From Acidiphilium acidophilum (GTDB taxonomy: Bacteria; Pseudomonadota; Alphaproteobacteria; Acetobacterales; Acetobacteraceae): 64,000 nt of DNA. A program made the translations under genes and the position numbers. Numbering within the stretch: position 1 is the stretch's first letter; every line of letters begins with the position of its first letter. The stretch spans positions 1,099,501-1,163,500 of the forward strand of contig NZ_JAWXYB010000018.1 in NCBI RefSeq assembly GCF_033842475.1, read 5' to 3'. The notes under the pieces were generated by a model. The model saw nothing but the letters and a program-made list of their open reading frames with translations, was not told where the DNA came from and ran no database searches. Positions 36,541 through 41,264 of the stretch are shown piece after piece.

Positions 36541-38710
<2,170 letters not shown>

Positions 38711-39325
38711 ATGATCGGCCTGATCCCGTTCCTCATCGACGATTTCATGATCAGTCAATGCGGCCGTTCCGCGCGCAACGAAGTGCTGATCGCAGAATCT
38801 CTCCCGGCCGATTTCAGCTTCAGCATCGCCCAATTCTACGAGGACGATCTATGCCGTCGCGTCATCATCGCGATGGCGATCCGCATCGCCCTGCCGCTGC
38901 CCGATCTGTACGATCGGCTGGGCACGCATTTCCTCGCCTGGATTCACGAACATCTCGGCGGCATGTTCGCCGGCGCGACCGACACGACCCAGTTTCTCCA
39001 TCGCCTTCCCGCGATCTATAACAGTTTCGGCGGTTCCGCCGCCGGGGCCGGCCTGCCCGGCGCGGTCGATCTGGTCACGATCCGTCCCGCCGGCTCCCAT
39101 CTGCGTGTCACCTACCAGTCCCAGCAGCGCTTCGCCGCCTTCTTCGCGAGCTTCATGAAGGCCGTCGCGCGCCATTTCAACGAACCGATCGCCATTGAAA
39201 TCGTCGCCGGCGGTCTCGATGCCGTTTACTGCGTGTTCGATGTCGCGGTGGGTGAGGCGGCACGATCACCCCATCACGAACCGGAAGGGGCGGCTCTCGA
39301 AAACGCCTTTCACCATGCCGGATGA
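38711..39325 (+). CDS. H-NOX-like (HNOB fold) protein lacking the proximal heme histidine
   Basis: The 204-residue protein follows bacterial H-NOX proteins from residue 1: MIGLIPFLIDDFMISQCGRS matches the N-terminal helix pattern of Shewanella H-NOX, FAGATDTTQFL the region before the heme ligand, and the C-terminal part FMKAVARHFNEPIAIEI also aligns. Where H-NOX has the proximal His there is Ile-Tyr-Asn (102-104). The YxSxR motif is Tyr135-Gln-Ser137-Gln-Gln139, so its Arg is lost. Heme or NO binding is therefore doubtful, or uses a different ligand. It overlaps the GGDEF-EAL gene by 11 bp, the usual H-NOX partner type. Confidence 0.8.
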   Translation: MIGLIPFLIDDFMISQCGRSARNEVLIAESLPADFSFSIAQFYEDDLCRRVIIAMAIRIALPLPDLYDRLGTHFLAWIHEHLGGMFAGATDTTQFLHRLPAIYNSFGGSAAGAGLPGAVDLVTIRPAGSHLRVTYQSQQRFAAFFASFMKAVARHFNEPIAIEIVAGGLDAVYCVFDVAVGEAARSPHHEPEGAALENAFHHAG

Positions 39326-41264
39326 TCAAGCCCGTCCCCCTTGGATCGACCCCGCCGATATCGAGGATATCTGCCAGCAATTCTTTAATCTGAGCGATCG
39401 TCCCGGCGCCGGTACCATCGTCGCCACCAGCCGGCACCCGCTGATCCAGAAATTCGCCCTCGCCGCCAATTTCTCGCTGGACCTCGCCCGGCGTGCCGCC
39501 CGCACCTCGGCGGAGTCCATCCGCGAGCTGAAAAAAATCCACCGCATCGCCCGCATCGCCAGTTGGCGGGTTCTCACCGCGCATCACGACACGATCTGGT
39601 CGGATGAAATGCACGAGATGTTCGGCTGCGACCCCGATCGCTTCGTCCCCGGGTTCGATGCCATGATCCACCTGTTCGCCCCGCCCGACGCGCACGATTT
39701 CGAGTCCGCCTTCCACGACGTCGTCGCCCGTGGTCAGGGCGTCGCGATCGAATTGCGCGGCAACGAGACCAACGGTGCCGACCGCTGGTTCTGGATCGAC
39801 ATGCAACCCGAACACGATAGCGATGGTGAGGTTTTCGCCGTCCGCGGCATCTGCCAGGACATCACCGAGCGCAAATCGGCGTTCGAGCGCATCCGCTACC
39901 TCTCCCGGCACGACCAGCTCACCGGCCTGTCCAACCGCGCCCATCTCGGCGAACAACTCGTCCCGATCCTCGCCGCCGCCGCCCGCCGCCGCGACTCCGT
40001 CGCTGTGCTCTGCATCGATCTCGACGGGTTCAAATCCGTCAACGACCTCTACGGCCACGCGGCGGGGGACGACGTGCTGCGTGAAATCGCCCGCCGCCTG
40101 TCGCGCCATATCCGCGATACCGATATCCTCGCCCGCAGCGGCGGCGATGAGTTCGTCGTCATCCAGATCGGCGGCAACCAGCCCGATGCCGCAACCAGCC
40201 TCGCCCGCCGCCTGCTCACCGAAGCCAGCACCAGCGTCGTCCTCGGCGGCCACGCCGAAATCGCCCTTTCCACCTCGATCGGCATCGCCCTCTACCCGGA
40301 GGACGGCACCACCCCGGACGATCTGCTCGCCCATGCCGCCCGCGCGCTCCACATCGTCAAGAGCGACAGTCCGAACAATTTCGCCCGTTACGACAGCTCG
40401 ATGGAACGCACCGGCCAGGACCGTCGCAAATTCGAGCACGATCTGCGCCTCGCCTTGCAGCGTGACGAGTTCTCCCTGGTCTACCAGCCGATCCTCTGCG
40501 CCCATCACGGCGCATTCAAAGGGTTCGAGGCGCTGCTGCGCTGGAACAGCCCTCTCCACGGCCCGGTCCCGCCCGACATCTTCATCGGTATCGCGGAAGC
40601 GATCGGCATCATGGGGCCGCTCGGTGCCTGGGTCCTCCGCACCGCGTGCACGGAGGCGGCAACCTGGCCCAACCCGCTCAAAATCGCCGTCAATGTCTCG
40701 CCCATCCAGATCCAGCAGGGCAATCTCGCCGCGACCATCGCGGATATCCTCGCCGAAACCGGCCTCGCGCCCGGGCGGCTGGAAATCGAAGTCACCGAAT
40801 CCATGCTGATCCGTCATCCCGAACGCGCGCTCGAAACCCTGCGTCAGATCAAGGCGCTCGGCGTCGATATCGCGATCGACGATTTCGGCACCGGCTACTC
40901 CTCGCTCGCCACGCTCCGCGCCTTCCCGTTCGACAAACTCAAGGTCGATCGCAGCTTCGTCCGCGATCTCGACGAAGGCTCGGAATCGCTTGCCATCATC
41001 AACGCCATCCTCGGCCTCGGCCGGGGCCTGCGCATGCCCGTGGTGGTCGAGGGGGTCGAAACCCAGACCCAGGCCGACATCCTCCGCCGCTGCGGCTGCG
41101 ATGAAATGCAGGGCTACCTGCTCGGCCGCCCCTCCGCGATCGAACGGTTCACCACCATCACCAATCCCAACGGTACTCTTTCCCCGCCATCCTGCATCCT
41201 GAGCCCGCCGATGGCGCACGAAAGGGCAGGGGGGATCGCGATCAGCAATGCCGGACATTCATAA
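39315..41264 (+). CDS. PAS-GGDEF-EAL bifunctional c-di-GMP enzyme
   Basis: The 649-residue cytoplasmic protein has an N-terminal helical segment (about 1-75), a PAS domain (about 78-190, ending RGICQDITERK), GGDEF (about 195-365) and EAL (about 375-625). GGDEF is intact (276-280), as is the inhibitory RxxD site (RDTD 267-270). The EAL motif (405-407) and DDFGTGYSS (522-530) are also intact. Both synthesis and breakdown of c-di-GMP are thus possible. Its start lies inside the H-NOX-like gene, which suggests coupled translation and complex formation. Confidence 0.9.
   Translation: MPDDQARPPWIDPADIEDICQQFFNLSDRPGAGTIVATSRHPLIQKFALAANFSLDLARRAARTSAESIRELKKIHRIARIASWRVLTAHHDTIWSDEMHEMFGCDPDRFVPGFDAMIHLFAPPDAHDFESAFHDVVARGQGVAIELRGNETNGADRWFWIDMQPEHDSDGEVFAVRGICQDITERKSAFERIRYLSRHDQLTGLSNRAHLGEQLVPILAAAARRRDSVAVLCIDLDGFKSVNDLYGHAAGDDVLREIARRLSRHIRDTDILARSGGDEFVVIQIGGNQPDAATSLARRLLTEASTSVVLGGHAEIALSTSIGIALYPEDGTTPDDLLAHAARALHIVKSDSPNNFARYDSSMERTGQDRRKFEHDLRLALQRDEFSLVYQPILCAHHGAFKGFEALLRWNSPLHGPVPPDIFIGIAEAIGIMGPLGAWVLRTACTEAATWPNPLKIAVNVSPIQIQQGNLAATIADILAETGLAPGRLEIEVTESMLIRHPERALETLRQIKALGVDIAIDDFGTGYSSLATLRAFPFDKLKVDRSFVRDLDEGSESLAIINAILGLGRGLRMPVVVEGVETQTQADILRRCGCDEMQGYLLGRPSAIERFTTITNPNGTLSPPSCILSPPMAHERAGGIAISNAGHS

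Follow-up and report, generated by a model that had tools for sequence, protein, structure and literature searches.

A tyrosine at the proximal heme-histidine position of an H-NOX-fold protein overlapping a PAS-GGDEF-EAL enzyme in Acidiphilium acidophilum

Stand-alone H-NOX proteins that act on enzymes of cyclic di-GMP (c-di-GMP) turnover have been described in several bacteria. SwH-NOX of Shewanella woodyi acts on a GGDEF-EAL enzyme, the bifunctional SwDGC, and switches it between synthesis and hydrolysis; the H-NOX proteins of Dinoroseobacter and Legionella inhibit their cyclases when bound to nitric oxide (NO; PMC8846402). Rupture of the bond between the heme iron and the proximal His (Fe-His) is regarded as a requirement for the activation of canonical H-NOX by NO, although an H-NOX protein of Caulobacter is reported to respond to Cys oxidation and not to NO (PMC12329717). 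The proximal His is described as absolutely conserved in 598 closer homologues (PMC7108781). The H-NOX proteins of Paracoccus denitrificans and Rhodobacter sphaeroides lack it, and hnoX of P. denitrificans overlaps a GGDEF gene (PMC5588039). In group 5 H-NOX proteins fewer than 10% have the His and most have Pro, and how they sense is posed as an open question (PMC8738867). The present text concerns a gene pair at positions 38711-41264 of a 64,000-nucleotide stretch of Acidiphilium acidophilum DNA (the window), in which an H-NOX-fold protein with Tyr in the place of the proximal His is encoded directly before, and overlapping, a PAS-GGDEF-EAL protein. Loss of the His beside a c-di-GMP enzyme is already known; what is unusual here is the Tyr, and the more useful result is a module common to the partner enzymes. 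The features of the pair are the following.

38711..39325, + strand: H-NOX-fold protein of 204 residues, Tyr103 replacing the proximal His (open reading frame, Pfam HNOB, Foldseek, alignment).
39017..39019, + strand: codon 103, reading TAT for Tyr, in the place of the proximal heme His; one base separates it from the His codon CAT (alignment).
39113..39127, + strand: remnant of the YxSxR motif, Y135-Q-S137-Q-Q139 (residue table, alignment).
39315..41264, + strand: PAS-GGDEF-EAL enzyme of 649 residues, retaining GGDEF, the RxxD I-site and the catalytic residues of EAL (Pfam, motif search, alignment).
39345..39506, + strand: N-terminal module of the partner enzyme, residues 11-64; putative H-NOX docking module (profile; common to the partners of the subfamily).

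As in S. woodyi, a stand-alone H-NOX accompanies a GGDEF-EAL enzyme. SwH-NOX is a heme/NO sensor, whereas the Acidiphilium protein has Tyr for His and has lost the Arg of YxSxR.

The 204-residue product (N-terminus MIGLIPFLIDDF) matched the Pfam family HNOB (PF07700) over its full length and above the cut-off (residues 3-163, covering profile positions 2-162 of 163; score 56.5 bits, cut-off 25.5; E = 4.2e-15), and was the sole HNOB match in a profile search of the A. acidophilum genome. The AlphaFold2 model, made from a three-sequence input (mean predicted local distance difference test, pLDDT, 77.6; predicted template-modelling score, pTM, 0.72), had Tyr103 within helix 92-111. All 49 matches of this model at E ≤ 0.001 in a Foldseek search of the PDB were H-NOX or soluble guanylate cyclase (sGC) chains (TMq 0.40-0.70; best hit, TMq 0.68). 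The protein has the H-NOX fold, in line with an earlier note, made from the sequence of the stretch, which had matched it to bacterial H-NOX proteins along its whole length; a chance similarity to H-NOX was ruled out by the profile match and by the composition of the Foldseek list. No family was found for the protein in an NCBIfam scan, and no relative in a scan of viral contigs.

Residues 102-104 are Ile-Tyr-Asn. Tyr103 paired with His102 of Tt H-NOX inside an ungapped stretch of the sequence alignment and stood in the His column of the sister proteins, so that the place assigned to it by the earlier note was borne out. The window protein reads AIYNSF where its closest His-bearing relatives read EIHNSL, EIHSSL or EIHASL, EIHNSL coming from a sister in the same genus. 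The proximal His of a canonical heme-NO-sensing H-NOX is absent, and with Tyr at its place the canonical switch, in which NO breaks the Fe-His bond, is impossible as such. Two named orthologues, from Acidiphilium rubrum ATCC 35905 (55% identity) and Acidiphilium sp. PA (53%), also have Tyr, which was found in three of three distinct Acidiphilium orthologues and in a fragment from the same species (draft genome G299). His97, which an alignment might have placed in the proximal position, was ruled out as a hidden ligand, being Met in both named orthologues.

The YxSxR motif was likewise not canonical: it is Tyr-Gln-Ser-Gln-Gln, as previously read, with Tyr and Ser retained and Arg replaced by Gln (Ala in the two named orthologues). 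Throughout the Tyr clade the residue table showed Tyr and Ser kept, the first hinge Gly present, and Arg and the second hinge Gly gone; P115 was found in the window protein only, in a column that is uncertain because the loop around it was poorly modelled. The eight tabulated His-type sisters kept His, Tyr and Ser, and lost Arg, P115 and both hinge Gly.

The two genes overlap by 11 bp (39315-39325) in different frames. The earlier description of the pair as fused by overlap holds for the overlap; a gene fusion was ruled out, there being two overlapping genes in different frames. The Pfam domains GGDEF, EAL, PAS_3 and PAS_4 were above cut-off in the partner, and PAS_9 below it. The motifs RDTD-x5-GGDEF, EALLR and DDFGTG were present, and E405, N460, E495, D522, D523, K543, E579 and Q599 were invariant across the three Acidiphilium orthologues; the motifs are read from the accompanying alignment, some entries of the motif table being blank or first-match artefacts. 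The active sites and the I-site had been described as intact, and these results agree. An H-NOX gene adjoining a GGDEF/EAL gene with intact catalytic motifs is the arrangement of an H-NOX-associated c-di-GMP enzyme pair (HaCE), and the partner is apparently bifunctional, looking from its residues able both to make and to break c-di-GMP. Interrupted enzyme frames were observed in two draft genomes: a stop lies before the second half of EAL in the partner of G302 (L146:2572-4860), and the frame is also interrupted in G299 (L151).

In A. rubrum and Acidiphilium sp. PA the frame is likewise open, the two genes again overlap by 11 bp, and the genes downstream come in the same order. The ratio of nonsynonymous to synonymous substitution rates (dN/dS; Nei-Gojobori) of the H-NOX gene was 0.46 and 0.48 for the window against the two orthologues and 0.30 between those two, which indicates purifying selection and rules out a pseudogene. 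In the same three pairs the enzyme gene had 0.34, 0.28 and 0.09; the same-species draft G299 was left out of the enzyme comparison on account of its frame shift.

Relatives were sought in the genus and class with a subfamily profile and in the family and phylum with PF07700, the draws overlapping in part. Genomes with an HNOB or subfamily match numbered 14 of 299 for the family, 6 of 13 for the genus, 11 of 385 for the class and 103 of 398 for the phylum. The alignment had 136 rows after removal of 15 duplicate loci, the weak phylum hits G845 and G834 being left out. Its proximal column held His in 75 rows, Leu in 23, Pro in 11, Gln in 5, Tyr in 4, Phe in 4, Val in 2 and Ala in 2, with one row each of Glu, Asp, Asn, Ser, Arg, Gly and Trp, and 3 gaps. 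A residue other than His stood in 58 of the 133 rows that have one there, in one of them (the Glu row, L007) by an alignment shift, with His one residue earlier. All four Tyr rows were from Acidiphilium. Loss of the proximal His is not rare, given these counts and the published His-less H-NOX proteins beside GGDEF genes (PMC5588039, PMC8738867). The earlier interpretation kept its first part, a His-less H-NOX overlapping an apparently bifunctional c-di-GMP enzyme, and lost the rarity that it had implied; its three alternatives, a heme-free protein, a Tyr-ligated heme and a sensor of another ligand, are weighed below.

Further His-less H-NOX genes beside GGDEF or EAL genes, for which the earlier note had proposed a search, were found in a group of 19 rows, the f23-type. 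His was missing from 18 of these rows, 10 of which had Pro, and a GGDEF open reading frame (ORF) followed the H-NOX gene, or overlapped it, at all 17 loci of a first check and at the remaining two. In the residue table of this group the Tyr of YxSxR was present in 0 of 18 rows and the Ser in 2 of 18, and P115 and both hinge Gly were kept. The family is taken as Rhodobacteraceae, and the 19 rows are the likely counterpart of group 5.

Another set of 46 long rows (within L073-L143; L119, a further long row of f23-type, is not counted) had HNOB followed by about 250 residues, for a total of about 430. The proximal His was missing from 34 of the 46, with Leu in 23, and PilZ was present in all 11 long rows scanned (examples are L081:1974-3257, L092:1230-2507 and L142:1878-3239). 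The whole YxSxR was kept in 31 of the 34 His-less rows. In these HNOB-PilZ fusion proteins an H-NOX domain, mostly without the heme His, is joined to a probable c-di-GMP receptor.

The tree was built with the trait column removed from 101 rows, 9 fragment, same-species or doubtful rows having been dropped and the remaining 127 thinned at 75% identity. The window protein fell in a subfamily of 10 rows (SH-aLRT 100), two with Tyr and the other eight all with His. Its sister group consisted of three proteins with His, of which two came from Acidiphilium (SH-aLRT 96), and the branch to the Tyr pair was long (1.39). The tree as a whole requires a minimum of 8 gains or losses of the His. Approximately unbiased (AU) tests rejected the joining of the Tyr rows to the f23-type His-less rows (p = 0.029, of moderate strength) and to 16 other His-less rows taken as PilZ-type (p = 0.001), both values being only indicative because the groups were named after the tree had been seen. 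The Tyr lineage is in a separate subfamily and not in the f23-type clade (group 5 by inference). A profile comparison with one f23-type H-NOX gave an alignment limited to the first 75 residues.

The Acidiphilium Tyr version looks like a separate case from the known His-less H-NOX proteins. It resembles group 5, of which P. denitrificans Pden_3719/DgcA is an example, in that an H-NOX without the proximal His overlaps or adjoins a GGDEF gene (PMC5588039, PMC8738867). It differs from the presumed counterpart of that group, the f23-type, in having Tyr where 10 of 19 rows have Pro, in keeping the Tyr and Ser of a motif that is largely lost there, in a PAS-GGDEF-EAL partner with a different type of N-terminus, and in its separate branch. 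The Tyr-type and His-type Acidiphilium proteins shared 24-30% identity (L010 against the three Tyr proteins) and their genes sit in different neighbourhoods, so that a plain replacement of the residue within a single line of vertical descent need not be assumed.

Not visible to the earlier note was that the Tyr lineage lies within a subfamily that bears His, and that the partners of this subfamily have an N-terminal module in common. About 55 N-terminal residues were common to the partners of this subfamily. A model of the module core, run against the ORFs of the fetched loci, had all its matches in genes that immediately follow a subfamily H-NOX; this was so in 12 of 12 genomes with the module, of which 9 were seeds of the model and 3 were not. 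In searches of whole genomes the module matched 11 of 299 in the family and 3 of 385 in the class. E was below 1e-15 in nine of them (7 seeds, G236 and G209); the five weak matches (E 1.8e-5 to 8.2e-4) had no H-NOX ORF in their loci of 2.7-3.2 kb and look like chance. The His-type sisters L008, L009, L010, L013, L019, L023, L077 and L137, and L160 outside the tree, belong to the same subfamily and have the same partner module as the window protein; unlike it they keep the His, and the eight tabulated also lack the YxSxR Arg and both Gly hinges. L160, which lies on the minus strand in G209 and keeps the His, is an H-NOX ORF immediately before the module; G209 had no PF07700 match in the genome search. 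The module is apparently new, its strong matches lying only directly downstream of these H-NOX genes, and it provides a sequence handle for H-NOX-linked enzymes and regulators, having revealed in G209 an H-NOX gene missed by the Pfam search.

The output behind the module varied, as expected of a docking module: besides GGDEF-EAL partners, the His-type partners of G102, G236, G925 and G870 had the main EAL motifs and no GGDEF motif by motif search (the Pfam GGDEF cut-off was exceeded by the G925 partner, not by that of G870), and a sigma54 activator was also found. In the latter case (G486, L145:3588-5491) the gene after the H-NOX joins the module to the activator domain (PF00158, 246.6 bits), with no GGDEF-EAL, suggesting H-NOX control of transcription. 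The N-terminus of the f23-type partners was of another kind, and the single one scanned matched HNOBA marginally (23.6 against 23.4 bits). A Pfam scan of the partner N-terminus found no family for the window protein and weak hits below cut-off for two others. The module may well be the docking site of this H-NOX subfamily.

The conserved pairing and the shared module suggest that the H-NOX protein regulates the enzyme. The favoured reading, considered somewhat probable, is that of a docked H-NOX-fold regulatory subunit of a two-gene signalling unit that lacks the canonical Fe-His switch. Such a unit would involve docking, an effect on the enzyme and the absence of heme: the 204-residue protein would dock on the PAS-GGDEF-EAL protein at the latter's N-terminal module (about 55 residues), and would shift the balance of that enzyme between c-di-GMP synthesis and hydrolysis. 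SwH-NOX with SwDGC is a precedent for such a unit, and other H-NOX groups encoded beside diguanylate cyclases have also lost the His. The Acidiphilium H-NOX protein probably works without a His-ligated heme, as an apo regulatory subunit. Being His-less, it may sit in a released, signalling-like conformation, in which case the signal received might be a different ligand, the redox state or simply how much of the protein is present. Removal of the His is said to trap H-NOX in a signalling-like state. The structure of an H103G mutant of a Shewanella H-NOX is in the PDB (2kil; from the Foldseek search). Heme-free action in vitro is described for the Vibrio cholerae H-NOX, a Cys/Zn redox sensor (PMC7108781), which unlike the window protein keeps the proximal His and works by Cys oxidation at a zinc site. 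A Cys/Zn redox switch of the Vibrio type was rejected for the window protein, because C174 appears to be the one residue of that site that is matched in it.

Several observations weigh against an apo subunit docked in this way. Y135 and S137 were kept in all three Tyr orthologues, and the f23-type His-less rows lost the Tyr in 19 of 19 and the Ser in 17 of 19; retention of the two residues could mean that a propionate-bearing cofactor has been kept. The proximal residue is moreover Tyr in all three orthologues and not a varying residue, a weak point because about half of all columns were invariant among these three sequences. Same-genus H-NOX proteins with His (G196, G302) precede the same kind of enzyme, so that loss of the cofactor does not follow from the pairing. 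The AlphaFold model of the partner N-terminus was too poor (mean pLDDT 58) to lend docking any structural support; the listed Foldseek matches of this model were mostly PAS/LOV domains.

Part of the same evidence would fit a Tyr-ligated heme, an alternative that is unlikely and yet comes next after the heme-free reading, which is favoured over it. Tyr103, as a phenolate, would be the ligand of ferric heme, to be released on reduction, by NO or when heme is lost, so that the pair would read redox state or heme and not NO through Fe-His. Tyr coordinates ferric heme axially in natural proteins of other folds. The invariance of Y135 and S137 in the Tyr clade, and of the Tyr itself in all sampled Acidiphilium orthologues, is consistent with such a ligand, while the YxSxR Arg, replaced by Gln or Ala, is lost. 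Eight His-type sisters keep their His despite having lost R135 and, in the uncertain loop, P115; those losses therefore need not mean loss of heme. Retention of Tyr and Ser is in turn no proof of heme, since the His-less HNOB-PilZ-type rows keep the whole YxSxR in the great majority of cases (31/34) and the two residues accordingly do not require it.

A naturally evolved Tyr-ligated H-NOX, in which an NO sensor became a ferric-heme/redox or tetrapyrrole sensor still driving the c-di-GMP enzyme through the docking module, is a tentative and rather doubtful proposal. If true, it would have been reached by a change that one base can make (CAT to TAT). The Tyr clade and its His-bearing sisters occur in one genus with the same kind of partner, and their comparison would show the effect of removing the Fe-His switch. 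Among the papers listed in literature searches of partial coverage there was neither a naturally Tyr-ligated H-NOX nor a study of the Acidiphilium gene, which is no proof that none exists.

That the ligand of the pocket is some molecule other than heme, or another tetrapyrrole, is improbable; one candidate would be a metal-porphyrin intermediate. R98 and L99, which lie next to the proximal position, were invariant in the Tyr clade, and L99 was Gln or His in the His-type sisters. Photosynthetic reaction-centre genes occurred in 8 of the 13 genus genomes: in 6 of 6 with HNOB and in 2 of 7 without. This overlap is weak, because Tyr and His types are both included and both phototrophic, two of the six genomes are of one species and several drafts are incomplete; it possibly reflects only shared ancestry. 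A. rubrum contains Zn-bacteriochlorophyll a, according to a reference title in PMC7677001, which is what makes a metal-porphyrin intermediate a candidate.

That the H-NOX protein is vestigial, having lost its cofactor and drifting while the enzyme acts alone through its PAS domain, is very improbable: the branch to the Tyr clade is long (1.39) and in all three pairs the H-NOX gene had a higher dN/dS than the enzyme gene (0.46/0.34, 0.48/0.28, 0.30/0.09), but the values are well under 1, the frame, overlap and gene order are kept, and the partner retains its N-terminal module.

As to the surroundings of the pair, a promoter scan found none, with 0.7 expected. The A. acidophilum genome had one match to FIST (PF08495), the domain of the NO sensor NosP (PMC8846402). 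One feature was observed upstream of the pair.

38407..38511, - strand: thiamine pyrophosphate (TPP) riboswitch, Rfam RF00059 (68.3 bits); it heads the divergent thiC gene (PF01964) at its 5' end.

The longest ORF of thiC (36541-38535, - strand) starts upstream of the riboswitch; the real start is therefore probably further inside.

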